From: Xestospongia bergquistia
Taxonomy: Eukaryota; Porifera; Demospongiae; Haplosclerida; Petrosiidae
Direction of reading: 5' to 3'
DNA length: 64,000 nt
NCBI GenBank assembly: GCA_963965975.1
Contig: OZ014415.1
Span: 7,445,001-7,509,000, forward strand
Position 1 is the stretch's first letter, and the number at the start of each line of letters is the position of its first letter. Under the pieces are notes generated by a model. The model was not told where the DNA came from and ran no database searches. It worked only from the letters and a program-made list of their open reading frames with translations. Below, piece after piece: positions 36,510-63,462 of the stretch. The position numbers and the translations under genes are program-made.

Positions 36510-37647
36510 CATTTAACAAATTACTTCACAGGAAGCACTCATCATATCATATCAATTATTGTTATTAATTATTATTATATCTTATAACTATTTATACTAG
36601 TCATCATAAATAATTACTTCACAGGAAGCACTCATCATATCATATCAATTATTGATATTATAATTATTATTATATCTCTGTTCATTATTGTCATAATCAT
36701 TAGATATTATTATTGTTGTTGTTGTTGTTGTTTATATTACTATATCAAAACTCCTTTTACTAGTCAACATCATTTAATTGTCAGATATATGATATCACTT
36801 TGAGTGATATAAAAAGGCTTTTTTAATTCATTTTAATTATTTGTAGAAAATTTTTAGTGTATATTCTTGATATTTTGAACAATGTATTAGCTACTCAAAG
36901 TTATATAATATGAATCTTGACAGTAATTGTCTATGTTATCATTAACAAAATAAAATTGTTAGTTTTGTAGAGAGGGGGTGGCTAGACTAACAGTTAGTGC
37001 ATCAAATAATTATAACCCTCACAATAACATGATACTGTTAAGTACAATACTTTTATAACAATATTGTGATGTTAGAAAGGTTTAACTTACTTATAATATA
37101 AAATAATGTATTTGTTGTCCATTATAATTGATGTTATTTGAACTGAACTTTGGCTATCAAGTTATAGTATATGCCAAATATCAATATATATCATTAATAT
37201 ATGTATACTTGTAATTAGACATGGAGTACTAGAGAAGCCTTAAGTACATATACTCTAAATGTATCAGTGACATATTTATATTATTCAAGTGTCCAATATG
37301 TTATAAATTGTTGTTACATCTAATGAACAAAAGTTATTTAAAGTGTTTAACAATTAATGGACACCTTTTCTTAACAGTATTTCCTAGCAAGTTTACATTG
37401 TTATATCTAGCATGGATAATTTCACAGATTACAATTGAATCATAAAAACTGACACAATTCAAGGTTAATGCATATATTTAAATTAAAGTGCTTTAAAGTA
37501 TTTAAAAGTATTATTTTATATAGTGTTTATGTAAGTACTAATCCTTTGTCAATTATGCACCATTTACACATTCCTCATTTTGGTATTCAGTTGATCATCT
37601 CACTCAATGAGCAACACATTTTCAATGGTTGCTGTATAGAATTAAGA
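36510..37647. other. Intergenic stretch
   Basis: AT-rich. A direct repeat containing 'taattacttcacaggaagca' and 'ctcatcatatcatatcaatt' occurs twice at about 36522-36660, and a (TTG)n run lies at about 36713-36735. No gene is recognised. Confidence 0.55.
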
Positions 37648-38181
37648 TTGTATCAGAATATAATCACTATCCCATTGAATTTAATTGGGTAGTATTCTAT
37701 TATACAGGTCATGGTGGAAGTATAGATAAGAAAGGCTATTTCATTTTATCTGATGACAATGACAGAGATGAGAATTTTCCCATTGATTCAGAAGTCATTG
37801 ATAGATTTCAACCTATCAATCCAAATTGTCATCTTGATAATCGTAAACGTTTGTTTCTCTTTGACTGATACAACTGAAACATTACCCATATCTCCACCTT
37901 CATTGGTTGATTGTTACCTACCTTGTTACCAACCATCTAATGATTTCACTATAATTGCACATGCTACATATTACAGAAGAGTCGCTCATGGTGACTTTTC
38001 ACATGGAGGTGCATGGACAATTAAATTGTGTGACAATATAAGACAATATGCAGAAACTAAGGAAGTGACTGATATTCTTATCAAGACAAGAGATGAAGTA
38101 ATCAATGAAACAAAATTTAACGTCCAAGGTCCTTTTCATATAGTGAATTGTGAATGTGGCTATCTTGTTAAACCCAGATGA
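37648..38181 (+). pseudogene. Caspase-domain pseudogene
   Basis: This is about 95% identical by eye to the caspase exon of the gene ending at 48003. The His motif ('YYTGHGG') is intact, but a 14-bp deletion converts the Asp-Cys-Cys active-site codons into Asp-stop (TGA at 37866-37868), and the remaining small-subunit-like part continues in another frame to 38181. The N-terminal strand of the caspase fold and all receptor exons are absent upstream. It marks the first copy of the duplicated cluster unit. Confidence 0.88.
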
Positions 38182-39819
38182 GGTGTGTTATCTATTTATT
38201 TTTTTGGTAACTATAGCGATACATTATTTGTCTTAATGATAACACCAGAGAGTGAAGTCACACACACTTCAGGTTTCTTTATTATTCATTAAACATAATG
38301 TTTAAATATGTACATGTGGTTTTTTCTTCTGTATAGAGAAAAAGCTCAAAATATGCAGATGTGTTGCATGCTAAACTGTTTATTTTTCATTTTAAAATCA
38401 ATAGATAATGTTAAGTATTATGCTAAAATTACTAAATCATGCAGCTGCTTTTAACCAATCACTTTTTCAATAGTTTCTTTAATAAATATTATTAAATTTG
38501 ATGCATTATTATCCTAGAACAAACTAACAAATAATAACACATACAGCTGGTGAGAGAGGTTCTACTGAAGGCTGTCATATCCTATACTACTGCAGGTGAC
38601 AAGACTATGTAATACAGCATTACACTTCTGTAATAGTACTACATATGCATATTATGCACTGATCAACATGTGTCAATGCCTCCTTTATGTTTACAATTGG
38701 GTCTGTGTTTGTTTAGGAAATTAGAATCACCAAGTTGCTCTATTTTATATAATTAATATTTAGTTTATCTCTGTTTACAAAAGCTAAGGAAGACAACAGC
38801 TATATTATGCTTCTCTAGATTCCTTTCGATTGACCAAACTCTACATGTTCTCTTGATCTTCGTAGCTGTGCAAATATTGTCAACGTATTTATCACTAATC
38901 TAACTATCATACAATTAATAAGGGTAAGATCTGTTTAATAGAGGGGGAGAGAGAGAAAGAGAAAGGAGTGGTCACATACAGGTTGAAATTTCACATACAG
39001 TGTATGTATCGTATCTGGTAAATCTTTGGAGAACATTTGGTACATGCTTTATTGCTTATGCTGCTTGAAGCTACACTGACAAATCAATTATTGTAACTTA
39101 CCGTGTATGACAACAACATTACAAATATACATAGTTATATAATTAACTCATGATTCAAAACAATTATAGGACCACTTGGGATGCTGTGTATGCCAGGTGG
39201 AAAAAAATTGGTGTCAACTTGCAAAATGAAGTAAGAATTGCACCTGACTTAGCTCAACTTACTGCCATTGTTGTTGAATGACTTAAACTACTTTGTTAAG
39301 GAAGTTTTTGATATTTTAAATTGACTCCTTTTGTAGAATTGACAATAATAATACAATATTTGTTAGCAACAATGAACAATATGAATATACTTCTCTACAA
39401 TGAAGTTTTCTATGCAGAGAAGTAAATGGTCAACTGTTAGGCTAAACCTTGATTTGTTTATGATGTGGCCTGATGTTTATATATCAAAAGCACAATGTGC
39501 ATTATATATTTACCAATTTTTGTGTATTTACATTAATAAGTGTTATTTTGAACATAATCCTAACACTCCTATTGCTACTATTGTAAAACAGAAGAGACAT
39601 TTTCCTGATTTTACTAACTTGGAAGGATGTCCTAAAAATTTAATGAAGTTAACGTTGCTATATACTTTCTAGACTGACCATTTGTTGCCTCTTCTTTGGC
39701 TGTAAATTCATTCTTTTCACTTTTCTCTTCTTCAGACTCACATTGAGTGGGCGTCTAGGGACTAGTCTAGCTGAGCCCCACCCACCAACCAGAAAGAGTT
39801 CGACAGTGCGAAACACAAT
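38182..39819. other. Intergenic stretch of the duplicated unit
   Basis: No gene is recognised. Much of it aligns by eye with 48004-49185 (for example 'tcttctgtatagagaaaaag' against 'tttctatatagagaaaaaa', and the GA-rich run near 38945), so it belongs to the same duplicated block. Confidence 0.6.
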
Positions 39820-41205
39820 ATGGCCTCCAAGTGTATGTATTAATTTGTATTTGTATTGCAATACTATCTGTGTTTGTGTAGCCCTTATATTCAGTCGACC
39901 TACAGAAGCTGTAAAAGATCCTACTCGTATCAAAACTGATGACAGTACTAGTGATTCAGGTACAACAATTAATATAACTACCTTATTACGTTTGTACATT
40001 GTAGAAGATGAGCACACGCATTTAATAGCTAATAGCTGGCGGTCATCATCAAACCTTTTAAAGGGACTATCACCACACATAAATAATTCATCAAATGCAC
40101 GCAGAAGTGAACAGGATGATATCAACAGTAATTCCTTAACTGTTAGTGAACTTGGTAACAGACAAAAATCAAGTAAATATTTACACTACAAATGTTGTTA
40201 TTTACTTATTATTATTACATATTAATAGAGAAAAAGATTCTCTCAAAATGTGTTGTCGCATTTCTGATGATAAGTATTATTTTGATATTTGTCATTGTTG
40301 GTGGTACAATATTAATGGTAAAGTCAGTGTTAACATCACAACAGAGTAGTAATTCTATGGAGATTGGAGATGATAATTTGCCTGTTTCAGTTTTATTACC
40401 TTTGTCTCCTTATGTATATTCAGTCACAATAATGCTACTAAATCCTGGCTATGAGTCAGCTGTTCTTTATATAAGTCGAATAAAACCTTCCAAGATGACA
40501 AATTATCTATCAAAAGTTACAATACCTAAACTTTCTGGACGTTCTCGCTATAATTACAACTATTATGGTGCTGATCAGCCTATTTACTTGATTTCTAACT
40601 CAAGATTGTTATATGATCTTATCATATCAGCTGATACTGTTTCTAAATGTTATGCTAGGCTCTACCTATTCAGTGATGACACTAACTATAACAACTTCAA
40701 GAACTATCAAGTTTTTAAATCACCGAAGGCATATATTTCATCTTGTTTTCAAGTCAATAAATTAAACACTGAAACTAAGATAATGTGGGCCTTTAACATC
40801 ACTGAACCTTCTCTTTATTATGTTGGTGTAGAAATTGATGCTGGAGTCACTGTTACTAGTAACATATCAGTACTTCGTATGTCCTATAACACAACTGGGT
40901 TGTCTACCCCTAATGAGTGTAGTGAGCCTCTGTCATCAGTTAATCCATCTTGTACATTGATTTTGTGTAGTAGTAATTTCATCTGCAGCAAACTAATGTC
41001 ATGTATCTTAGTGAAACCTACTGGTATTGTTAAGATAACATATACTTCTGTAAGCGCTCATATTCATGGACAAAGTGGTGTCCTTGGATTTTCCTTTTCT
41101 CTAGTCATGTTTTTTATAGCTCTTTTAGCATTTGTAACCTTGATTTTTTTGTCTTTACATTACAGATCAGTAATAGTTTCTCATTTGTGTTTATGTAGAT
41201 ATTAA
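39820..41205 (+). CDS. Two-pass receptor-like membrane protein A
   Basis: Four exons give 406 aa: 39820-39830, 39895-39959, 40005-40172 and 40229-41205. An about 85-residue hydrophilic, Ser/Asn-rich N-terminus with a basic end ('KKKILSK') precedes TM1 ('VVAFLMISIILIFVIVGG'). The extracellular part (about 115-355) has the family core 'RSRYNYNYYGADQPIYLI', 'FNITEPSLYYVGVEIDAG', 'YNTTGL' and paired Cys ('NPSCTLILCSS'), plus several N-glycosylation sequons. TM2 ('FSFSLVMFFIALLAFVTLIFL') and a short Arg/Cys-containing tail end the protein. Basic residues before TM1 predict both termini inside. Unlike its relatives it has no visible Death or caspase domain. The near-identical copy is receptor B. 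Confidence 0.8.
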
Positions 41206-41599
41206 ACCAATTGAGAGATAATTTATACCTTATTGTTATAACTATGTCAATAATGTAGTGATATTTTTAATGATTTATTATATAATTAATTATATAAAAG
41301 AGTGAAATAGTGAGAATAATTGTGCTTGGTTGTAAATAAAATTCATAATTTACACAAGACCGCGTATCAGTATTCACAGTATTACACTAGGGTATTTTGA
41401 AATTTGCATTGTTGGATTGTTATAATAATAATATCATTATAAATACACTTTCCTATACCACTGATACTTTATGTACTGAATATGTATATGTGGCCACAAA
41501 TACACTAATAGGGTGAACTATCACAGTTTGTCAAAAAAGTGTGTATATTTAATGTAACAATGACTTCAAAGTCAAATAGCATCTTATAATTAAAGTCAC

Positions 41600-41636
<37 letters not shown>

Positions 41637-41927
41637 TGGGGAAATCTATTGTGCAATGATGAACTATCAAGTCCCTATATTCATAGCATATAGTCTATGT
41701 CACATGCAAGAACAACTATTCTCTGTCAGCTAAATCTTGAGTGCATGACTTCAGCTATACAAACAAACTCTCACTAAAATGACTATATATAGATGGTATA
41801 TGTTTATTTTATCATTGCTGATGTGAATCCATGAATTCAAATATTTGACAACATCTAGATACATATATATGCAGTTGTTCTCTTTAAAGTACATACTTAC
41901 ACAGAAAGTATATTTTTAATAAGCAAA
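41206..41927. other. Intergenic stretch between receptors A and C
   Basis: No gene. It contains a (TA)n run at about 41608-41632 and is nearly identical to 50576-51210, so it lies in the duplicated or converted block. Confidence 0.6.
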
Positions 41928-42963
41928 ATGATTTCTTATGGTACTATTCAACAAAGAGGTAAAATCGTAATAAATTGTACTATTATATCATATTATATTA
42001 TTTTTATAAACAGATGACAACAACGAAAACAATAGATTCAACTTGAGAGTCGTCATTATTATTATAGCAATTGCCATAATAATAATAGCATTCAGTGGTA
42101 CTGGCATACCACTTGTTTTTACTCATTATCATTCTAAGTCAATACAGCCAAATACAACACAACTCATTGGTGATGATTTCATTAATAGTGATGACAATGC
42201 ATTCTTTATTAGTGATGATATATCTCTTTCATCTATAGTCATATCATTACCTGATCCAGGAACTACAACAGTCAAAGTTTATAGCAGCTCTGAGAAGCCT
42301 ACTAAAAGATGTAAACAACTACCACAGATTACAATTCCTGAACTTTCTGGACCATCTCGCTACAACTACAACTATTATGGTGCTGACAGTGCTATTTTTC
42401 TATTACCTGGTTCAGTACTGGCATACAACGTTTCAGTTAGAAATGTATCCAAAATACCAAAGTGTCCAGCACGACTCTACATCTTTAACAATGTCTATAT
42501 GTATATGAAATATAAAAATCATGAATCGTATTATTCTGTTAAAATGTCTGATTGTTTTCTAACAGATGGAACAGCAATAACAACATTCTTTTTCTTTAAC
42601 ATTGTTGAACCTTCCCCATACTATGTAGCATTGGATATTGCTGCTAACGTAACTGTTCTTAGCAATGTTTCAGTGTCTCGTCAATTCTATAACACAACAG
42701 GACTGAAACTGGCAAATGAGTGTCATAACACTTTATCATCAAAAAACCCTTCATGTGAGATAACAACATGTTCTAGTTTCTTTTGCCTACAGCCACACCA
42801 ATACATCTTAGTAGTTCCTGACAATATTGTTAACATAACATATTCTTTAACTTTTGCTAAGTTCTATGGAGTTCAATTTATACCTGGTTTAGTTTTCAAT
42901 GTAATGTCATTTGTGTTCTTTCTAATTGTTTGCTTTTTGTGTTGTTGCTACAAGTGCCACTGA
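41928..42963 (+). CDS. Two-pass receptor-like membrane protein C
   Basis: Two exons, 41928-41958 and 42014-42963, join through a phase-1 intron to 326 aa. The cytoplasmic N-terminus is short ('MISYGTIQQRDDNNENN'), then TM1 ('VVIIIIAIAIIIIAF'), an ectodomain with 'PSRYNYNYYGADSAIFLL', 'FNIVEPSPYYVALDIAAN', 'YNTTGL' and 'NPSCEITTCSS', many sequons, TM2 ('VMSFVFFLIVCFLCCCY') and a three-to-four-residue tail. Lacking cytoplasmic signalling modules, it could act as a co-receptor or decoy (inference). A truncated copy lies at 51268-51590. Confidence 0.8.
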
Positions 42964-43326: not shown

Positions 43327-43934
43327 TTACCAGTGATCTTCCCATCCATTTTTATCAATAGCTTCGCAAATTGCCTCAACATCATAAATACTCGGCTTCG
43401 ATGATATTAGTCCTGTCACATCCACTTTAATAATTGGTTGTGGAGCCGGTTCTGGCGAACAAAAATCTCTATACCAGTTAGGTGTATCTTCGAGTTGTAT
43501 TTGTAGCAAAATACCATAAGCAACCTGTAAAGAAATGTCTACTTAGTATGTATGAAGTTTCATTTACTAACGTTATGTTTTGATTTTGTTTGGATTGCAT
43601 CGAGTAACGTTTCATACGTAGTATCAGCAGAAAAGTTAGCAGCAGCAGGTTTATAAGCAAGAGAAAATGTAAGTACAATCCTTAATGGATCAAGAGGACC
43701 AGGAGTGTCTCGAATGCTCCATGTATCAGGAAGATTGGCTCTTTCTTCATAAATTCGTTCAACGATAGATCGATCACCTGTTACTACGTGAAAAGAATCT
43801 CCTCTTTCAGACTGTACACTCTTAACTTGAATGCTTTCTTTTTTAACGTTTATCCTTTTTTCAATCTCTTCAGCTACGTCAGATGTACAGTCTCCGTCTA
43901 TAATAAGTTGTCGTCGATGACAACGAGCCTCCAT
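43327..43934 (-). CDS. Orphan small protein family, member J
   Basis: Two exons, 43934-43572 and 43524-43327, with a 47-nt GT-AG phase-0 intron give 186 aa. It is similar in length, intron position and sequence pattern to genes at 52491-53080 and 61876-62813: an N-terminal D-V-A/V-E/H-x-I heptad-like helix, 'R-I/M-x-V/I-x-K-E-x-I-x-V', 'D-R/Q-x-I-V/I' and a C-terminal 'P-x-P-I-I-K-V-D-V' then W-x-D-x-W at the end. There is no signal peptide, TM segment or family I recognise. It is probably cytosolic. It lies between receptors, head-on to receptor C. Confidence 0.68.
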
Positions 43935-45403
43935 TCTTCTTCTTTCTATGTCAGCTTAAGGAATTGCAAACGATGCATCATAAATCACGAGATGTAGTTA
44001 ATAACTTTATCAAATAAACTTTATGTAAACGTAGCTATATATAATATAAGCCTTAGTTAAAGTTATGTTTGTCTACCATATATGTCACGAATCGTGCAAT
44101 TTCATCAGTAATATCTATTAATTCATCTCACTTTCAATAAGATTTCATGCAATTTTAATTTATCTCACTTTCAATAAGACTTCATGCAATCTTTATAAAA
44201 AAAGTTATCTGTGTGTCTTAAGCTAGACCGAATGAAGACTCTTTATGACTTTGGTTGATTTAAAACTTCAATGTATTTCCATATATCAGTTGTAAAACAC
44301 AATATGCCAATAGAATATTTAGTATTTTATTACATAGAAAGGTCTACAGTGCATTGTAAATCCTACACTCTGAATAAAGTATGGATGTGTTTGAATTGAG
44401 TGCCAACTTATGTAATCATAATCATTTGTGATCATGCAGATTAATTACATTAAAACTTCAAATCTAATTAATATAGACTCTTCTACTATAAGTGGAGTCA
44501 CATTAAGCAGTACACTTGTCAAGTGTTTCAAAAAATATTGTAATTTTCATAGTCTTCAGTCTTAGCATTGTATATACTGGCATGATGTGTGTGTTCAATA
44601 TTATGAAATCAAAATTATTCATATACTTGACACATTATGTGCACAAATGACTTCGAAATTTAACAGACCAGCAGTGCACTTCAAAATTGCTTTTGTATAA
44701 CTATGAATAAATTTATTAACTAACATATAGGTTACCAATATTACACAAACAAGAATAACAAACTGTAAAATGATTTTAAGAATATTTTGATTGTATACTA
44801 TTGTAATCATTAATTTTTTCCTTTCATGTTTTGTATAGTCACTGTAAGTTTATTACTTAATCCAAATTTTTATCTATATCACATTACTTTATCTTATTTT
44901 GTAACTAACTTGTCACTCGTAAGCCATTGGTGGCTGGGCAGTCTTTTGTGTGTGACATAAATAATAATAATAATAATTATTATTATTATTATTATTATTT
45001 ATGTTCACCAATTGAAATGTGTATTATATAGTAATTTGTTGTGATTGGTCTTGTTTGCTTAACAACTTGAAACCTTTTCTTTACAATCACATTGTTTCCT
45101 GCTGTGATTAAGTCAAACCATATAACTGTATCACAGTCGTCAATAAAGGCCCTTCTAGATGCTCCTATAAAGTGATTGGTATCATCAATTTAATGTCTGA
45201 ATGTACATGCATGTATTTACAAACTTCTTAATTATCAATCTTTTATAAATGAATCTTTTGTTGATGTTAAAAAGTGTTTAAATTTATTTCACATGAAAAA
45301 TCTTTTTAAATTTTGCCATATATGGAAGTAGTACAGAAAATTAGTTTAGCTGACACAGATTATTATTTATTCATAATTACACATCTCTGTCACATATGAA
45401 AAG
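43935..45403. other. Intergenic stretch
   Basis: No gene is recognised. An (AAT)n/(ATT)n palindrome at about 44958-45002 could form a hairpin. The 45404 start codon follows. Confidence 0.55.
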
Positions 45404-48003
45404 ATGATGAAATCTTGCAAGAAGAGAGGTGCATGTACGTTTTTCTATGTACTGTCTGTACATTTTTACTTTTATGACTTCTTACAGATTGGCTGAGATG
45501 TGGTACTATAACAACAGCAAGTATTGCAATTGTAGCTACGTTATTTTGTGTAATTGCTCTACCGTTGCTGTTGACAAAACCTGTACACACCAGCAATCCA
45601 GCACAACAAGGCCCTGATCTCATTAAACTTGATTCATCAACTTTTTCTGTCATTATTTCACTTATAGAGCCTCAAAAAGCACAGATAAGTGCTCTTTTAA
45701 CTTTTAATAAACCAATGGAGTATAGTTATTTAATTCGTGAGAGGCCAAAGCCTTCACTCCGTGGACCATCTCGCTATATATACAATTACCATAATGCTGA
45801 TAATTCTATTTACTTGTTTGCTGGTTCAAAACTGATATATAAAATATTTGTAACAGGTACAACTACTTCGTCATGTCCAGCACAACTTTTTCTTTTCAAA
45901 AACTGGCAATTTTATGACAATTTTAAGAATGGACACTTGTTAAATTCGTTCAATAAATCTTTATGTTTGCATCCTGACCAAAGTAACCAAACCATCACTT
46001 TTGAAATTACTATATCAGCATCTTATTATGTTGGTATATACATTGCTTCCAACACCTCTGTCATTGGTTACATCTCAGTGGAACATGTATTCTACAATAC
46101 AACTGAATTCGATCCAAAAAATTATTGTAGCGAGCAACTTTCTGTTAACAATCCAAATTGCAAGTTGACAATTTGCAATGTAGCTCCTGCCTGTAGTAAC
46201 CAATATTATTTGCTAGTAAATTCCACCAGTAACATTACATACAGTATTGTGGAGGAACGTCTTTTTTCCAATAACACAGGACAAATTGCCACTTTAACTG
46301 TTCTTTTATTTTCTCTACTACCCTTAATTTCTTTGTTGTTGTTTTTTATCAGCTGTGTGATAAAGAAAAGATATTTCACATCAGGTATAATATTAATACA
46401 TATATAACTTTCATGCATAGAGACATGTTTAAAGTATATCTATAGTAATAATTATTATTGTTTCTACTCATGATGCATGGAGTCAATCAATTTACACTTG
46501 TTAAAATATAGATGGAAGAGGCAAAGTCAAACATTATTCGAAATCATCGTCTGTAACACCAGCAGCATCATTTAGTATTATTTTGCTAAAACTTAGACTA
46601 ATGTCAGTGAATCATACTATATAGAGTGATGAGTTTAGGGTCTAGGGTTTGGATGAACAGTTCTGTGCAAATAACAATTTAGGAAAATGTTAGCTGAAGT
46701 TTTCAGTTGAAACAATACTAGCCATTGCTAGCATTGTTAATGAAAGTAGTTAAATGTATTAATGGGAGCTACTTAATTTTGTTTCTCTGTTTTCAATTCT
46801 GCCATTTGTTACTATACAGGTAATTTACCCCCGGCTGATACTACTGAGATGCAATATGACAGTAAGTGTTTAGTATTGAATATGGCAATGTTTGTTCCTT
46901 TATCATCTACATAGAATTCATTTTACAGGCCACATAGTTTCTTATTTTAAAATGTATTAATTTGTCATTTTTGGTTCCTCTATACTCTGTTATACATTTG
47001 AGATGATGATATAGACTGCTTACATTCCGTCATAGGTCTCAAGCTGTTGATAATCTAAAAAACAACATGATTATTGTAAACAAATATGTAATATGTTACA
47101 GTATATGAGCATATCAGCTTCTCTTCATTCATTATCTTTGGCACTTTAAGCCAAAGTTTTTATTTAAAACCTAGGCCAATTTCTTATGTGCATGCATATG
47201 ATATTTATCTAAAATGATAAGTATTATGCCTCTTTTTTGTAGAATTATATAAAGAGTTCACTGAAGATGTGATGGCAAAAGTAAAAGAAGATAAAATTGG
47301 TCTTGCTGTCATATTTGGTGTAGTAAATAAGAAGGGACCTCAAGGAGCTGATTTAGATGTTGAAAATGTCAAAACAACTTTTTATAACATCAACTATGCT
47401 ACATGGATTATTAAAAACCCAACGTGTACAATAATGAGAAATGCAGTGAAGATTGTATCAGAATATAATCACTACCCCATTGAATTTAATTGGGTAGTAT
47501 TCTATTATACAGGTCATGGTGGAAGTATAGATAAGAAAGGCTATTTCATTTTATCTGATGACAATGACAGAAATGAGAATTTTCCCATTGATTCAGAAGT
47601 CATTGATAGATTTCAACCTATCAATCCAAATTGTCATCTTGATAATCGTAAACGTTTGTTTCTCTTTGACTGTTGTTTAAAAGAAGATACAACTGAAACA
47701 TTACCTATATCTCCACCTCCATTGGTTGATCATAACCTACCTTGTTACCAACCACCTTACGATTTCACTATAATTGCACATGCTACATATTACAGAGAAG
47801 TTGCTTCTGGTCACTTTGCGTATGGAGGTGTATGGACAAGTAAACTGTGCAACAATATAAAACAACATGCAGAAGATATGACAGTGAATGACATTCTGAT
47901 CAAGACAAGAACTGAAGTAGTTAGTGAGACAAAATTTAAAGCACAAACTCCCTTTCAAATAGTGAATTGTGCAGATGACTGCTTACTTATTCAACCCAGG
48001 TGA
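45404..48003 (+). CDS. Two-pass receptor with cytoplasmic caspase-like domain (receptor D)
   Basis: Four exons, 45404-45428, 45488-46384, 46820-46861 and 47243-48003, are all joined by phase-1 GT-AG introns and give 574 aa. A short basic N-terminus ('MMKSCKKRDWLRCG') is followed by TM1 (about 15-37), the shared ectodomain ('PSRYIYNYHNADNSIYLF', 'YYVGIYIASN', 'YNTTEF', 'NPNCKLTICN'), TM2 (about 275-299, then 'KKRYF'), a small linker and a caspase-fold domain (about 335-574). That domain starts 'IGLAVIFGVV', has His413 in 'YYTGHGG' and Cys465-Cys466 in 'LFLFDCCLKED', then a small-subunit-like part ('DFTIIAHATYY', 'GGVWTSKLC'). By alignment to caspase LFxxxxC, Cys466 is the likely nucleophile. 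Predicted: a plasma-membrane-tethered caspase. The splice joining the receptor to the caspase exon is inferred, not observed. Confidence 0.78.
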
Positions 48004-49185
48004 GGTGTTACATATATTATATATATGTGTGTGTATATAATTATATACATAAATGTGTCAATATCTATTTAACTATATAATATGACATAAAGATGTAATT
48101 ACAACAATAGTGTTTAAATAATGACACTGCATTTACAGTATAAATTAACATGCACTTCAGGCTTTTCTATTATACATGAAACATAATGTTTATGCATGTA
48201 CCTGTGGTTTTCTCTTTCTATATAGAGAAAAAATCACAGCAGAAGATGAGGGCCATCTTTGTGCAGAGGGGGGGGTGGTCAGCTGACCATAGCTGAGAAA
48301 ACAACAAGACTCTCTAGAATATTTTTTTCTATTGACCAAACTGTACATGTTCTCTTGATCTTTGTAATTGTGCAAATATTATTGCATACGTATTTATCAC
48401 CAATACTAATTATCATACAATAAAATCTGTTTAAAAGAAAGAGAGTGAAAGAGAGAGAGAGAGACAGGATAGAGAGACAGAGACAGAGAGACAAAGGAAT
48501 GGTCACATACACACTAAAACTCACATACAATATACCATATCTGGTAAATCTTTAGAGAACATTTGGTACATGTTTATTGCTTTTGTTGCTTGAGGCTACA
48601 CTGACAAATCAATTTTTGTAACTTAGCATGTATGACAACAACATACTATAAACATACAAATATACATAGTTATATAGTAAATCCATGATTCAAAACAATT
48701 GTATAATCATTTAGCATGCTGCACATGCCAGGTGGAAAAATTGTTGTCGAAATGGAGTAAGAATAGCACATGACACAGTTCATCTTATTTTCATTGTTGT
48801 TGAATGACTTAAACTACTTTGCTAAAGAAGATTTGATACTTTATATTGACTTCTTTTATAATTGACAATAACAATACAATATTTGTTAGCAACAACAAAC
48901 AATATGAATACAATTCTCTCCAGTGAAGGATTCTCTATGCAGAGCAATAAATGGCATCGGTGTAGGAACAGGGGTGAGGGGTGGGGTGGGGGCCACAAGG
49001 TGCACGTGCCCTACTAGCAAGCTAAAGTAGATCTGGTCCCACGATTTATGTCCCATATAAGGAATGTGGCGCAGGTGTTGGTATGCAATTAGAGGTAGTG
49101 TGAAATTATGAATATCATTAAGTTGAAGGTGAACATTGCAATTTAATGATAGCCGAGTCATCAAAATAAAGGAGTGCAAAACACA
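48004..49185. other. Intergenic stretch of the duplicated unit
   Basis: No gene. It has a (GA)n-rich run at about 48433-48495 and is similar to 38182-39819. The segment 48955-49160 is not shared and shows no coding character. Confidence 0.55.
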
Positions 49186-50575
49186 ATGGCCTCCAAGTGT
49201 ATGTATTAATTTGTATTTGTATTGCAATATTTTCTTTGTTTGTGTAGCCCATATATTCAGTCGATCTACAGAAGCTGTAAAAGATCCTACTCCCATTGAA
49301 ACTGATGACAGTACTAGTGATTCAGGTACAACAATTAATATAACTAGCTTATTATGTTTTATACATTTTAAAAGATGAGCATACACATTTGTTAATAGCT
49401 AGTAGCTGGCGGTCATCATTAAGCCTTTTAAAGGGACTATCACCACACATAAATAATTCATCAAATGCACGCAGAAGTGAACAGGATGATATCAACAGTA
49501 ATTCCTTAACTGTTAGTGAACTTGGTAACAGACAAAAATCAAGTAAATATTTACACTACAAATGTTGTTATTTACTTATTATTATTACATATTAATAGAG
49601 AAAAAGATTCTCTCAAAATGTGTTGTCGCATTTCTGATGATAAGTATTATTTTGATATTTGTCATTGTTGGTGGTACAATATTAATGGTAAAGTCAGTGT
49701 TAACATCACAACAGAATAGTAATTCTATGGAGATTGGAGATGATAATTTGCCTGTTTCAGTTTTATTACCTTTGTCTCCTTATGTATATTCAGTCACAAT
49801 AATGCTACTAAATCCTGGCTATGAGTCAGCTGTTCTTTATATAAGTCGAATAAAACCTTCCAAGATGACAAATTATCTATCAAAAGTTACAATACCTAAA
49901 CTTTCTGGACGTTCTCGCTATAATTACAACTATTATGGTGCTGATCAGCCTATTTACTTGATTTCTAACTCAAGATTGTTATATGATCTTATCATATCAG
50001 CTGATACTGTTTCTAAATGTTATGCTAGGCTCTACCTATTCAGTGATGACACTAACTATAACAACTTCAAGAACTATCAAGTTTTTAAATCACCGAAGGC
50101 ATATATTTCATCTTGTTTTCAAGTCAATAAATTAAACACTGAAACTAAGATAATGTGGGCCTTTAACATCACTGAACCTTCTCTTTATTATGTTGGTGTA
50201 GAAATTGATGCTGGAGTCACTGTTACTAGTAACATATCAGTACTTCGTATGTCCTATAACACAACTGGGTTGTCTACCCCTAATGAGTGTAGTGAGCCTC
50301 TGTCATCAGTTAATCCATCTTGTACATTGATTTTGTGTAGTAGTAATTTCATCTGCAGCAAACTAATGTCATGTATCTTAGTGAAACCTACTGGTATTGT
50401 TAAGATAACATATACTTCTGTAAGCGCTCATATTCATGGACAAAGTGGTGTCCTTGGATTTTCCTTTTCTCTAGTCATGTTTTTTATAGCTCTTTTAGCA
50501 TTTGTAACCTTGATTTTTTTGTCTTTACATTACAGATCAGTAATAGTTTCTCATTTGTGTTTATGTAGATATTAA
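49186..50575 (+). CDS. Two-pass receptor-like membrane protein B (near-identical to A)
   Basis: Exons 49186-49196, 49261-49325, 49399-49542 and 49599-50575 give 398 aa. The last exon differs from receptor A by one visible residue (Asn for Ser just after TM1). The acceptor used for A's third exon ('tgtag') is destroyed here ('tttaaaag'). The next in-frame AG at 49397-49398 keeps phase 1 and shortens the N-terminus by eight residues. Domain layout and topology are as in A. Identity across introns and 3' flank is also almost complete, which implies a very recent copy or gene conversion. Confidence 0.78.
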
Positions 50576-51267
50576 ACCAATTGAGAGATAATTTATACCT
50601 TATTGTTATAACTATGTCAATAATGTAGTGATATTTTTAATGATTTATTATATAATTAATTATATAAAAGAGTGAAATAGTGAGAATAATTGTGCTTGGT
50701 TGTAAATAAAATTCATAATTTACACAAGACCGCGTATCAGTATTCACAGTATTACACTAGGGTATTTTGAAATTTGCATTGTTGGATTGTTATAATAATA
50801 ATATCATTATAAATACACCTTCCTATACCACTGATACTTTATGTACTGAATATGTATATGTGGCCACAAATACACTAATAGGGTGAACGCATCACAGTTT
50901 GTCATAAAAGATGTGTATATTTAATATAACAATGACTTCAAAGTCAAATAGCATCTTATAATTAAAGTCACATGATGTATATATATATATACACACTGGG
51001 GAAATCGATTGTGCAATGATGAACTATCAAGTACCTATATTCATAGCATATAGTCTATGTCACATGCAAGAACAACTATTCTCTGTCAGCTAAATCTTGA
51101 GTGCATGACTTCAGCTATACAAACAAACTCTCACTAAAATGACTATATATAGATGGTATATGTTTATTTTATCATTGCTGATGTGAATCCATGAATTCAA
51201 ATATTTGACATTATATATGTGTTTATTGCAAGCTACATATTTTCACTGAAAAAATATTTTAATAAGC
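50576..51267. other. 3' flank of receptor B
   Basis: Nearly identical to the 3' flank of receptor A, with a shorter (TA)n run. No separate gene. Confidence 0.6.
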
Positions 51268-51590
51268 AAAACGAGTTCCTATGGTATTATTAAACAAAGA
51301 GGTAAAATCAAGATAAACTGTACTATTGTGTCATATTATATTCTTTATAAACAGATGGCAAGAATATAAGCAATGTCATAATTACGTTAATAGTAATATC
51401 CAGGAGCTGTATTGGCATACCACTTGTTTTTACTCATTATCATTCTAAGTCAATACAGCCAAATACAACACAACTCATTGGTGATGATTTCATTAATAGT
51501 GATGACAATGCATTCTTTATTAGTGATGATATATCTCTTTCATCTATAGTCATATCATTACCTGATCCACGAACTGCAAATGTTTCCTTA
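51268..51590 (+). pseudogene. Truncated copy of receptor C
   Basis: The first-exon equivalent has ACG in place of the ATG start. The second exon begins differently, with a stop within its first codons, then matches receptor C from 'GIPLVFTHYH' to 'ISLPDP' and ends. The rest of the ectodomain and TM2 are missing. Confidence 0.85.
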
Positions 51591-52490: not shown

Positions 52491-53080
52491 ATGGACCAAA
52501 TTGTTATACATGGAACGACAAAAGAAACAAGTGAAACAGATGTCGCTCATGAGATCTCTGATAGGATGAAAATCTCTAAAGAACAAATAAAAGTCGAGAG
52601 AGTTGAACTGACATGTGGGTGTTGGTTTCACAAAATAACAGCTGATCGTGATATTGTTCAAACAATCTATGAAAGGAAAGATCGCCTTCCAAGAAGATGG
52701 CACCCTCGTTATTGTACCAGTTATAACAAGAAGGATGCTAAATTAGTGATATCACTTGCATATGCAAAAAGTTCAGAAAATAATGCTCTCAGCAACTTTC
52801 TAACTACAATTACTCAAGTTGGTAACCAGTACAAGGTAGAAAATTCTGATTCTACTAACAAAAATCAAAAAGTATTTTTCTATTAAAGGTCAATTATGAT
52901 GTTCAAGTAATAGTTGATAAAGAAGCAGACTGCAACTATTATGTCTCATCTGATAAAGAGCCGAAACCAATCATTAAAGTTGATATCAGAGGAAACCATG
53001 ATGACCTAGTTTACCCAAATCCTGATACAGTTGGAAAAATATGTGATGCAGTGAATACATATTGGAGAGACTACTGGTAA
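52491..53080 (+). CDS. Orphan small protein family, member H
   Basis: Exons 52491-52835 and 52889-53080 with a 53-nt phase-0 intron give 178 aa. It shares with its relatives the N-terminal pattern ('VIHGTTKETSETDVAHEI', 'KISKEQIKVERVE', 'ITADRDIVQTIYERKDRLP') and the C-terminal exon ('EPKPIIKVDIRG', ending W-R-D-Y-W). The fold is unknown; no signal peptide or TM. The conserved intron position in three copies supports a real gene family. The neighbours on both sides are receptor-family loci. Confidence 0.72.
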
Positions 53081-54592: not shown

Positions 54593-56460
54593 ATGGCTGG
54601 TGAAAAACACGAAGAGTCGGGTACGTTTCGCCTTTTAACATTAATAGAGTATTAATAGAGTATGAAGAGGGTCCTATGATTCATTATTCCTGTGTATATC
54701 CTTAAAAAAGTAGATTAAACTAATAGAATTAAATCATAGTGTATTAGATGTATATATTCTGTATTAAATTTGTGATTGACTCGTTTATGTGATTAATTTC
54801 TTCGTAGACTTAACAGAGCTCATTCAAAAGAAACCACATATTAAAGAGCAATGGTCAAGGGAATGCGATGATGAACTGTTTCTAGAACTAAGTAAGCAGA
54901 TACCAAACTCTGGTTTAACACTTGCACTTAGTCTTGGATTAACAAATGCTGATGCAGAACAAATCAAACGAGACAAACATGATGAAAAAGATAGGATAAT
55001 TGCAACTTTAATAAAATGGAGAGAAAAAAATGGCAGTGATGCTACCTACCAGGTATTGATAGAAATCTTCAGTACACATGAAAATCGTAAATTGGCTGAG
55101 TTTGTAATAAATTATCTTGATGAAAATGTACCAAGAAAGCAAACATCAGGTAGATACAATAAGTACATTATTAAAAGCTAATGAGGTACTACAACAATAT
55201 TGTCCATGGTATAGCCTGTGTACTATAATTTTCTTCTAGTTTAGAGCATACTTATAGTTTTTGCTTTGTCATTGTTTATACTATCATATATTTCCTTATA
55301 TGGTATTAATTTATGTTTTGATATTGCATCATCTTGCTTAGCTTGCTTTTTTGCTACTATATAAGTAGTTGGTTCTGCTGTTGCTTTTCAGTGTATTGGC
55401 TTTTAACTAATGAAGTCTTTGTAATAAATAACAAATATGTCTACAAACAGCACAATTATCATATCTTTCTCTCAATATAGGGACCATCAAACCATTAGTG
55501 TTCACAATTTTCGGCCTAGTTATTGCAATAATCCTTATAACCAGTGGATGTGTGGCTTTGGGATTAGCAGTGTCACCAACAAACACAACTAAACATGATC
55601 ATATTGGGCAAGATCCTTTTAACAGTCCTTCATTAATAAAACTCAACTCGTCTATTTCTTTTCTCACTATACATCTAATTGAACCAACTTCTCATATCAG
55701 AGCAATGGTTTACATTGATTCCACAACACCCAGTATGAATAGTGTTTATCTACAGTCATCACCATCGCCTACTCTAACTTGTTCAGGATCTCAACTTGCT
55801 CAACCATCTCGTTGCAACTACAACTACAACGGTGCTGACATTCCCATCTATCTACTTGCTGACTTTAAGTTGATATACAAGTTGTCCATCAGAAATAATA
55901 ATATGAACATAAACACAACTCCTACAAAACTTCTTCTTTTTAATAATTGGTCACAGTACCGCAATTACTTTGCATATAAATCTTATAATCCGTGTAACAC
56001 ATCAAAACCCCTTCAAGTTGGCAATGGAACAGCAATAAATTCAACATGGACATTCAATATTACTGAGCCATCTTTCTATTATGTTGCTTTAGAAGTAGCA
56101 TATAATGTCACAGTAACAAGTTATAATGTATCAGTTGCTGGTCAGTTGTACAACATATCAGGATTAGAAAGCCCTTGCAGCAAGCCACTGTCTGAAGAAA
56201 ATCCACATTGTGAAGTTTTTTTATGCAATAAATTTTATTGTAATCAACATGATATGTACTTGCTGATTGACTCTAATAGTAATGTTAGTGTGACATATCA
56301 CTTTATTAGTAGTAAAATTGATGGTAAGGCAGATTTACTTTGTTTTATTTTTGGTTTATTGCTACTGCTGACATTTGTATATTGTTTATGCTGGCCTTTT
56401 GTTTATTGCCTCTGGTGGCCTTTTGTTTCTGCTGCTTTCTGTTGCAAAGGACAGTTATGA
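54593..56460 (+). CDS. Two-pass receptor with N-terminal cytoplasmic Death domain (receptor E)
   Basis: Three exons, 54593-54620, 54808-55149 and 55481-56460, with phase-1 introns give 449 aa. Exon 2 is a self-contained Death domain (about 10-120): 'LALSLGLTNADAEQIKRD', then 'ATLIKWREKNG', 'ATYQVLIEIF' and 'LAEFVINYL', the LG-L / W-x-x-x-x-G / AT-x-x-L pattern of the family. Exon 3 encodes TM1 ('FTIFGLVIAIILITSG'), the shared ectodomain ('PSRCNYNYNGADIPIYLL', 'FNITEPSFYYVALEVAYN', 'YNISGL', 'NPHCEVFLCN') and TM2 ('LLCFIFGLLLLLTFVYCLCW') with a short Cys/Trp-rich tail. Basic/N-in topology puts the Death domain in the cytosol, where it could recruit other Death-fold proteins. Exon 2 is a symmetrical 1-1 exon (342 nt). 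Confidence 0.82.
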
Positions 56461-59164: not shown

Positions 59165-61170
59165 GCTATTATTATTATTATTATTATTATTATTATGTTA
59201 GCTAATATGTAAAGGTTATATTATTATTATTATAGTCCATTATTATTGTTATCATAAAGTAATATTATTGTTTTTATAAGTTCATTGGTTCTCATATGAT
59301 ACCATCCTCCGATGGTAACTGAATGGGTACTCTTGAGGCCCACATACCGGCATTGCCTCGCCATAAAGTGATGGACAGCCGTTGGAACAAATGGGAGATG
59401 GAGTGAGAGGGGGGCAAACCGAGACGATCGGCTTGAAGCTTTCCAACTTCTTTAATTACATTAGCAGCTTCCCTGCTCCAGCCCCCAAATGACTCAACCA
59501 CCAATGGGATGAAGGAGATTCCAGCTTGATGGCAATCGTTATCATGCAAGCGACGTTTACACTCCTCTGCCACAGAAATAGCATAACCTTGAGCGACAGC
59601 AGCATTATTGATGGTAAGTTGCTGGACAGGCGAGACTACAGTAACATCAAGAGCAGCAGAACGACCACGTTTCCAACAATGGAGAAAAACATCAGCAGGG
59701 CGACTACTGGAACATGGAACAAGGGAGGGGACTTCTTTCTTAGGGGCCAAGGCAGCAGACTGTGCAGCAGAAAAAATGACATCACGCAGGCTATCATGCC
59801 GACGAATCATGTCCCCATTACCTTTACAGGTAACAAGGTGATCACCCATACTGTCAGCCTCTGTGTCACAAACTAGACAAGAGGAACCTTCCTTGACCAT
59901 CTGCAAGCCAAGCCAATACCTTAGGCAGGAACGAAACTCCCAATCTACCAGGTGTAGGCCAAGAGCAGAACAAGGTACAACATTCAACCAGTCACCTACA
60001 TGGCAGATAGAGGAAGACAAAGCAAGAGCCCTGGAGCGAATATCTGGGGCCTCCTGAAGGAAAGATTCAAATCTGGCTTGGTCAATTATTCTACTGAGAT
60101 GGCGCTGACGAACTGGAACATCTATATCCTCAATGGAAGACCAATCGGAATGATCTACAGCTGATGTCAGAAGGAGCAGTGCATCATTGGTATGAGGAGG
60201 AGGGGGTGGACTTCGATCCAAGATCTCAGCAACAAGATGGGCAGATTTCGATACAGAACTGATGAATGCAGCTGAGGCATGAGAGGTTGCCAAACGAAAA
60301 CCCAGTCTGCCAAATGAGACTGGAAGAGTTGCTTTTTTCCAAGCCCAATCTGGCAGTGGAGCACCAACAATCTCAGAGACAGAATCATGCAAAGCTCTGT
60401 CAAGATTCTGAATAGCATCCTCAATGAAGGAGGGGGGACATGTGCGCAAGATAAAAACAAACTTGGGGAGAGACAAACAAGAGCGTAACAAGACATATTC
60501 CATCTGTGAATCATCCAACTCAGGCAGTAGGTCTAGTGCACTTTGAATCTTTTCTACTCTCTTGCAGGCCTGTGAGGAACAGAATGTAGTTGAACCAACT
60601 GGGGCACCCAAAAGCACAAAACCATCTCAAGCAATTGGAATATCAGAGAGGAGAAGGTTCTCAGACAAATCAGCATCTGCAGGAAAAAAAAAACAAAGAT
60701 TTAACTCGGTTGAGTTGGAGACCTCTCGCAGGACCATCTTCTTCAATGATGCGTAAGGCCTTTAACAGATCCTCACTAGAGCCACAAAGAGTTCCATCAT
60801 CTAGATACCAGGCATTCATCTGTAGGCCAGGCACCTCCTCTGCTATTCTCTCAACAATGGGGTGAAGGGCCAGAGCAAAGCAGAAGGGACCCAAAGGGTC
60901 ACCTTGCTTTACACCACAACAACTCTTTACGGTACGCTTACCAAGGTGAAGAATGGGCTGAGAGCCATAACAGCACTCTGTCCATGCAGCCATAGAAGGA
61001 ATACGAGCTCGTACTTCTTCAAACATACAATGACGATCAATTGAATTGAAGGTATTACAAAAATCAATTTGCAAGACCCTTTTACGCCTTAAAGGAATGG
61101 TATCATCACCTAAAATAGTGTTAACCAAATGAACAATAGCTTCACAACCAACTGGAACTCCAACACCAAC
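59165..61170 (-). mobile_element. 5'-truncated non-LTR retrotransposon with RLE-type endonuclease
   Basis: Read on the minus strand, 61170-60670 encodes the middle of a reverse transcriptase ('GVGVPVGCEAIVHLVNTIL', 'GVKQGDPLGPFCFALAL', and the active-site 'YLDDG'). The frame shifts at an A/T homopolymer (60687-60696), then meets a TGA, then continues from 60617 to 59292 with the thumb region, a CCHC-like knuckle ('CLVCDTEADSMGDHLVTC') and a restriction-like endonuclease pattern ('RPADVFLHCW ... ALDVTVVSP'). RT followed by CCHC and an RLE is typical of the R2/NeSL/Dong group. A (TTA)n tract at 59165-59240 forms the 3' tail. The 5' part of RT is missing. The element is dead and lies inside receptor G. 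Its GC content is higher than its surroundings. Confidence 0.82.
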
Positions 61171-61580
61171 TTGCAAATTTATACTATGTTGCCATTGAGA
61201 TAGACACTGGAACAAATGTAACTAGTTATGTGTCAGTAATTCGTGTGTACTACAACATTACAGGACTTAAAGAGACCCAGTGAATGTCCTGAGTACCTGT
61301 CCGCTGATCATCCATCCTGCCTAATCACATTGTGTAGCTTCTTTTGTTATAGAGGTGACAAATATTTGTTAGTTAATTCTTACGGCAGTGTTGAAGTGTT
61401 CTATTCTTTCTCTACTCCTAAAATATATGGGTCGGCAAAGATGGCTGGCTTTTCATTGGTTTACTGTTCGTTGTTGCTGCCATTATTATTGTAATGACTC
61501 TGTCTATACTTGCTTACAAAAATAAAAGATTAATACGATGTTGTAAGCACATTTTTAACTGTCAATCAAGAACAGATTAA
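61171..61580 (+). pseudogene. 3' part of receptor G
   Basis: Starts abruptly at the retroelement edge with the ectodomain block 'LYYVAIEIDTGTNVTSYVSV' and 'YNITGL', shifts frame at about 61270 (stop in the first frame), continues 'DHPSCLITLCSFFC', then the second TM, again frame-disrupted at about 61480, and a basic tail. Not translatable as a receptor. Confidence 0.85.
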
Positions 61581-61875: not shown

Positions 61876-62813
61876 TTACTGATACTTGCTGAAAGATGAC
61901 TTAACCACAGCAGATATTTTTTCCAAATCTTGTTGACTTGGACAGACATCAGGATGTTTTTGTATACTCATTTCCATGAGTGGTTTGAAAACTTTATTTG
62001 TACGATCATAATAGGTACGAAGACCATCCCCCACATTAACAGACAATAAAATGTCATAGTTAAAATTGACCTGAATACAATTATAAAGTATATATTTTAC
62101 AATTCCATTATAAATAGTATTATTGTAACATGACCTTTTGTACAAACTTGTTTTTACATATACTATAATTGTATTCATTAACTTAATAATTCAAAAATAT
62201 GATCATAAGTGACTGCTGTTCATATTCCAAATAAGGATATTGTTCCTCGATGCTGAAGTTAGTAAATTGTACTTATTAAATACATTTTCCATTTAGATTT
62301 CAAATATAGCTAGTCTTGTAGCTAATTTATTAATAGTGATTTTATTTAAAACCAGTGACATATATAATCTAGAGCAAAGCAAGACTTCTTGTTACATCTT
62401 TCTATATAAAAGATACACTATTGCCTTACAGGTTCTTGAGTATTTGTTAGAGATGCGAAGAATTTTTTCAATCCATCCTCATCAATTGGTGATGGTGGGG
62501 CTGGAGATACTGAGACATCCGGCCAGAAGGTCAATGTTAATGATAGGGCATTTGTCTCTTGATCTTGTAGGCTTATTACTGGATGTAAAGTCCAATGACG
62601 AGGTAGAGAATGCTTTCTTTCATGAAGCTGATGAATAATATCTTGGTCAGCAATTATTTCATGAAACCATTCTTTGCCACGAATTATCTTTCTAACTTGA
62701 ATGTTTTCTTTTTTTATCCTAAGCCTACTTGTAATTGCATGCTCCACATCTAAGTCACTTGCCCCTCTTTTAGTTCCAGAGATATAAATTTTTCCTGACT
62801 CACTAACAGCCAT
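61876..62813 (-). CDS. Orphan small protein family, member I
   Basis: Exons 62813-62430 and 62070-61876 with a phase-0 intron of 359 nt give 192 aa. The N-terminal exon matches its relatives ('ISGTKRGASDLDVEHAI', 'RIKKENIQVRKI', 'IIADQDIIHQLHERKHSLP'). The second exon starts 'VNFNYDILLSVNV', matching 'VNYDVQVIV' of member H, but ends in a different C-terminus ('DLEKISAVVKSSFSKYQ'). No signal peptide, TM or known fold. Probably cytosolic. Confidence 0.7.
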
Positions 62814-63462
62814 TATATTGTTTTGTCAAGGAAGTCTAAAAAACAATCGGTCATATGATCTAATTAGATATTCATTACACACTATGAATCCTTGTACTAT
62901 CAAGAAAGTATAGCTACCATGTCGATAATTACTGTCAGGCTTATCATCAATAAAATATAATTCATTATTATCAACACTTGATATTCTTGAGTAGACCCTA
63001 GCATTATTATTATATATTGTGAGTAAAACAAAATATCAGGGGATCTAATAATGAAAACCCACTATTACTCCTGTAAACATAATAACAGCAGATTATTCCA
63101 ATTATTATGATATTTTAACTTAATATTGTTAAACTAACTATTATAATTATTATTATAAGCATTGTTTTATAACAATATAAATTGATCAGGCTCATCCAAC
63201 CAATTGGTTTACAATTTACAAGTCTATAAAATGTTTTTTGTTTATATAATGATGATGTGTCCTACTGTCTAGAAATCTAACAGTTATTTGAGTACACAAT
63301 ATAACAAAATGAAGCAGTAGTGATACAGCGAATATTGTACATATCTGTACATATACTTCAAAAGTCAAATATTATTCATACTCCTCATGTGATTGTGTCA
63401 TGAATTCTCGTTAATGTGCACTGTCATGTCAAATTAGCAACTTTAGTAACTTCAAATACATT
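62814..63462. other. Intergenic stretch between divergent genes I and K
   Basis: No coding sequence. This about 650-bp region separates divergently transcribed genes and may hold both promoters, but I see no clear TATA box that could be assigned. Confidence 0.4.

Follow-up and report, generated by a model that had tools for sequence, protein, structure and literature searches.

Organization of the Locus

We analyzed a window of 64,000 nucleotides (C5:7445001-7509000) from a genome of 146 Mb in 21 contigs; the window sequence contains 0 N. Four exons on its forward strand, when joined in frame, encode a predicted protein of 574 amino acids in which a first transmembrane segment (TM1), an ectodomain, a second transmembrane segment (TM2), and a caspase-like domain follow one another (Table 1). 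The three introns all lie in phase 1, and GT/AG is intact at the splice sites. The four-exon join, residue numbers, and coordinates given in a first-pass annotation of this DNA are reproduced, as are the two motifs to which it drew attention, with His413 lying in YYTGHGG (from residue 409) and Cys465-Cys466 in LFLFDCC (from residue 460).

Inclusion of the candidate juxtamembrane exon would give a product of 595 amino acids, and its position, judged by eye, is approximately that of a linker exon in L010, the nearest paralog of the receptor half. L010 likewise appears, on visual inspection, to possess a short first exon followed by a short intron. At the 3' end, exon 4 may be spliced at 47999 (CAG/GTGAGG) to 48226, and an AATAAA is located 3' of the fusion gene at 48419. 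The junction region of the fusion gene is unique in the genome.

Table 1. Positions in the window of the fusion-gene exons, candidate exons, and associated features
Feature	Position	Strand	Basis or remark
Exon 1: start codon and short basic N-terminus, predicted to be cytoplasmic	45404..45428	+	frame matches exon 2
Exon 2: TM1, beta-rich ectodomain with 7 sequons, TM2	45488..46384	+	hydropathy, sequons, genome matches, structure model
Candidate extra juxtamembrane exon, 63 nt	46512..46574	+	in frame; frame stays open if added
Exon 3: linker, 14 codons	46820..46861	+	likeness to L030 linker exon
Exon 4: caspase-like (Peptidase_C14) domain, stop TGA	47243..48003	+	PF00656; C4 copies L030 and L031 69% and 67% identical
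Candidate alternative last exon, +19 residues	48226..48285	+	donor at 48000, acceptor before 48226; open translation, then TGA
Divergent neighbor gene, head to head with receptor gene	43563..43955	-	52% identical stretch likewise head to head with L010
Broken 3' caspase fragment	37644..38186	+	87% identical to 47449-48008; stop at active-site Cys region

Several other features are present in the window. A small protein family is represented at 43563-43955 (-), 52494-52883 (+), and 62421-62825 (-), and has no Pfam match at E 1. A death-domain exon (54780-55178; PF00531, E 2.1e-9) is found just upstream of a receptor ORF (55432-56460), and reverse-transcriptase-like open frames at 59292-61221 (-), recognized by eye, are probably a retrotransposon remnant. 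In addition, 37644-41999 and 47449-51342 form a segmental duplicate that takes in the broken caspase fragment, flanking sequence, and a near-identical receptor ORF, its main blocks being 87%, 78%, and 96% identical.

The Receptor Half

Hydropathy places TM1 at residues ~13-42 and TM2 at residues ~272-303 with the seven sequons in between, and a structure model of the receptor exon (mean pLDDT 78.3, pTM 0.63; 12 sequences) shows a beta-rich central part with helices at either end. These features bear out the order of TM1, glycosylated ectodomain, and TM2 that had been proposed for this protein, both termini of which should be cytoplasmic with the ectodomain outside. Structural comparison reveals a jelly-roll-like core with generic jelly-roll matches, and did not find a specific family for the ectodomain. 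A Pfam search with the receptor exon at E 1 returns no family, nor do the other sequence libraries used provide a name. Searches with 12 receptor family members give weak matches alone (best 0.012), with TNFR among none of them.

A genome search with the receptor exon finds 21 matches, the exon itself among them, and all 21 are on C5. As part of the overall explanation that we prefer, it is reasonably likely that the receptor half belongs to a locally expanded family of two-pass receptors. The nearest match, L010, is also on C5 and is 64% identical over TM1, ectodomain, and TM2. L010 resembles the fusion gene in having these three elements in one exon, a similar first exon, and the same kind of head-to-head neighbor. 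It differs in its tail, which is composed of linker exons and a borderline death-domain match without a caspase. Specifically, L010 DNA continues past TM2 through apparent linker exons, identified by eye, to a death-domain match (PF00531, E 1.4e-4) for which the score of 22.4 bits is just below the curated cut-off of 22.6.

The Protease Half and Its Death-Domain Relatives

The first-pass annotation had assigned a caspase fold to exon 4 and suggested a profile search; in a Pfam search, exon 4 matches PF00656 (Peptidase_C14) at E 1.3e-20 and 74.6 bits (cut-off 21.4), which is beyond chance and upholds the assignment. At E 0.001, exon 4 has 42 sequence matches in the PDB, all of which are caspase-3 entries (Caspase-3, Procaspase-3, Apopain), and the best 60 of 150 rows in a family-profile search of the PDB are caspase-3 and caspase-7. 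Genome-wide, PF00656 is matched by 99 of 103 candidates, one of the 99 being on C5, and there are at least 150 Death matches (150 of 983 candidates were scored and all 150 match). By these contents the genome is that of an animal, probably a sponge.

The caspase exon has 25 genome matches, including itself, and the best of these are the C4 copies L030 and L031. Besides a similar protease domain, L030 shares a linker exon and intron phase with the fusion gene, from which it differs in having an N-terminal death domain and no recognized receptor exon. Upstream of the L030 caspase, with limits set by eye, are a death-domain exon (PF00531, 5.7e-7) and then two linker exons, and a hydrophobic open stretch before the second of these was taken as intron. 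No receptor exon was recognized in the 3.5 kb upstream of L030. Elsewhere among these relatives, L032, L035, L036, and L037 have a similar extra open frame downstream of the caspase (136, 134, 75, and 126 amino acids, respectively) with a motif of the type IMDARPDK or IMSAIPDK; it may be a C-terminal exon of these C4 caspases.

Active Site and Predicted Specificity

We aligned 18 rows of this subfamily with eight classical caspases of this genome. The caspase-3 dyad corresponds to His413 and Cys466, and the catalytic Cys and His are present in 17/18 and 16/18 subfamily rows, respectively. The active site in the window reads FDCCL in place of QACxG, and the column occupied by Gln in all eight classical caspases is Asp in all 18 subfamily rows. 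Moreover, Arg is present in either column of the S1 arginines in 0/18 subfamily rows compared to 8/8 classical rows; these columns were set by the alignment and the second is less sure, a one-column shift placing Arg at the second site in five rows (L030, P0003, P0004, P0009, and P0011), the window copy not being one of them. On this alignment, the Arg/Gln/Arg S1 set is absent from the 18 subfamily rows. In a tree of 25 rows, the subfamily stands apart from the classical caspases with support of 100 on a long branch, a situation about which the program warns. The missing QACxG motif and S1 set speak against a canonical Asp-specific caspase, and the FDCC active site and non-conserved S1 residues leave the strict, Asp-specific meaning of "caspase" unsupported.

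The residues that bind Asp in caspase-7 are Arg87, Gln184, and Arg233, their counterparts in MALT1 are Asp365, Asp462, and Glu500, and C14B enzymes are described as cleaving after Arg or Lys (PMC4357240). Asp464, two residues before Cys466, would match a C14B trait, namely an S1-pocket acidic residue placed shortly ahead of the catalytic Cys, as is Asp462 in MALT1. Judged from the S1 residues against the residue sets reported for caspase-7 and MALT1, Asp is unlikely at P1, and Arg or Lys is possible. Separately, L041 (C11) and L042 (C12), each the one sampled member of a large caspase cluster, have lost the catalytic residues (by eye) and so look like pseudo-proteases.

Two Sources for a Predicted Fusion Gene

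BLASTN splits the fusion gene in two, with 45502-46513 matching the receptor paralog L010 and 46945-48018 matching the C4 caspase L030; it gives no match for 46514-46944, which includes exon 3. In an ungapped comparison, exon 3 and the second linker exon of L030 are identical at 26 of 42 bases and equal in length and phase. This is the best ungapped offset tried in that region of L030 (the next best gives 22) and is reached in 0/100,000 shuffles. Given this likeness, the linker and protease exons probably traveled together as one unit. When the death domains of L010 and L030 were used as tblastn queries, no death domain was found at the fusion gene. With its halves drawn from separate sources, the gene looks as if exon shuffling had fused a death receptor to a death-domain caspase, with the death domains of both missing.

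A second fused gene was not found in this genome, where C5 carries every ectodomain match and one of the 99 PF00656 matches. In the other assemblies, no ectodomain match is on a contig equal in length to one with a caspase match, the contig of the window itself excepted, and no fused ortholog was seen. A search with the full-length protein, in which 8000 candidates were scored, gave one match, to the receptor part alone.

One Gene or Two

That receptor and caspase are on a single transcript is predicted from the exons, and their phases, the linker exon, the close spacing, and the conserved frame favor one protein. On these grounds a tethered, caspase-like enzyme is the best reading, and this part of the earlier proposal of a membrane-tethered caspase stands; canonical Asp specificity, with QACxG and the S1 set absent, is not supported. 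The most serious alternative, which we nevertheless consider unlikely, is that two genes lie side by side, a receptor gene ending after TM2 and a truncated caspase gene driven by a promoter of its own, which are joined in the prediction alone. Read-through of the exon 2 donor would indeed give a short tail (GIILIHI) and then a stop, the window has four further receptor ORFs of full length (40177, 42010, 49547, and 55432) that stop soon after TM2, although they may splice too, and an internal Met in the caspase exon would yield a protein of 243 amino acids (P0002). Against two genes, a phase-1 linker exon similar to the one in the C4 gene lies in the interval, L010 seems (by eye) to splice onward past TM2, and neither AATAAA nor ATTAAA occurs between 46385 and 47243.

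Evolutionary Constraint

For the caspase exon, dN/dS is 0.41 relative to L030 and 0.46 relative to L031, compared to 0.40 between L030 and L031, and the value for the receptor exon relative to L010 is 0.57. The dS values are close for both halves (0.44 for the caspase exon relative to L030 and 0.42 for the receptor exon). The three caspase pairs yield a dS of ~0.23 for the window branch. Neutral simulation at this dS predicts 7.6 stops where none is seen, and the frame stays open in 1/4000 runs; the branch to which dN/dS and the simulation refer takes in time before the fusion. The caspase frame looks to be under constraint, and the fusion gene is probably functional.

A protease domain that is fused but catalytically dead, giving a decoy receptor in which this domain serves as a scaffold or competitor, is distinctly improbable. 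Pseudo-enzymes do occur among the relatives, P0010 lacking the Cys and both P0007 and P0010 lacking the His, and L041 and L042 seem by eye to be equally depleted. The window copy, however, retains His413 and Cys466 and appears constrained. What lost constraint looks like here is exemplified by the broken caspase copy 10 kb upstream of the intact one; the genome match list has no receptor match just upstream of this broken copy. Its presence nearby and the lack of a fused ortholog among the assemblies searched might suggest a decaying or very recent fusion that has no function, but this is highly improbable given a frame that is open at a dS of ~0.44 from L030 despite the stops expected on the window branch, and intact GT/AG.

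Proposed Origin and Mechanism

Directly visible in the DNA are the order of the domains, an origin from two sources, introns of matching phase, a conserved frame, and the catalytic His and Cys. We favor, with some confidence, the explanation that this is a host gene assembled by exon shuffling, in which a two-pass receptor is joined to linker and protease exons derived from a death-domain caspase and the protease is tied to TM2. The first-pass annotation had suggested activation by receptor clustering. The relatives of both halves point to the fusion of a death-domain receptor with a death-domain caspase, which is a sharper reading than clustering alone.

Since death domains are found on the protease relative and, seemingly, on the nearest unfused receptor, it is natural to suppose that receptors of this type use death-domain pairing to recruit proteases of this type. 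In the ancestral step, the death domain of the receptor would have paired with that of the protease. After fusion, the protease would sit straight on the second membrane helix with no death domain between. In the simplest model, contact through the ectodomain would then cluster the membrane-bound proteases and activate them by proximity, and they could cleave substrates located close to the membrane. The residue at P1 would be one other than Asp, perhaps Arg or Lys, with cell death or immune signaling as the putative outcome. As a more speculative extension, about which we are doubtful, a sponge-grade animal may possess an adaptor-free extrinsic pathway, in which D-C-C proteases that have death domains and cut after basic residues are the direct partners of two-pass death receptors; the gene described here would hard-wire both, so that ectodomain clustering alone would fire it.

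Fused genes often show which separate proteins cooperate. As both halves have a nearest unfused relative that apparently carries a death domain, the fusion points to a candidate receptor-protease pair in an early-branching animal, which bears on the origin of extrinsic death or immune signaling.

Comparison with Known Systems

Among the papers listed in a literature search, no title or opening of an abstract names a two-pass receptor-caspase or a sponge receptor-caspase. Work on the sponge Amphimedon describes proteins that combine death-fold and TRADD-N domains with variable C-terminal domains, including caspase, amid heavy shuffling of death-fold modules (PMC8195603). The present gene likewise probably comes from a sponge, and in both cases death-fold and caspase modules have been mixed in a lineage-specific way, although a transmembrane ectodomain-caspase is not among the proteins named there. 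Bacterial EACC2-caspase proteins with CHASE2 and transmembrane helices (PMC8195603), together with prokaryotic orthocaspases and type-I metacaspases that have transmembrane domains (PMC10896300), resemble the fusion gene in joining a sensor or transmembrane region to a caspase-fold protease; they differ, as described in these papers, in their prokaryotic origin and other sensor domains.

The closest precedent, the TNFR-caspase of amphioxus, is predicted to be a transmembrane protein, has a TNFR ectodomain and an intracellular caspase, and is supported by cDNA (Zhang et al. 2008, PMC2575513). The first-pass annotation knew of no animal caspase with an ectodomain and two transmembrane segments; this protein shows that receptor-caspase fusions as such are on record in animals. 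It has been interpreted as the result of domain shuffling that lets inflammatory-type signals lead to cell death by a shortcut, and QACXG is reported to be kept in amphioxus caspases (PMC2575513). As in amphioxus, ectodomain, transmembrane segment, and intracellular caspase are combined here in one protein, predicted in our case from exons alone. Unlike the amphioxus protein as reported, the one encoded here, known from DNA alone, is two-pass, has no recognized ectodomain family, and has FDCC at its active site. If this is one gene, it would represent a receptor-caspase fusion independent of that in amphioxus, with another receptor and another active site. On the published account of amphioxus, the fusion of receptor and caspase as such is already known in animals, and the combination of a two-pass receptor with an FDCC protease is the new variation.
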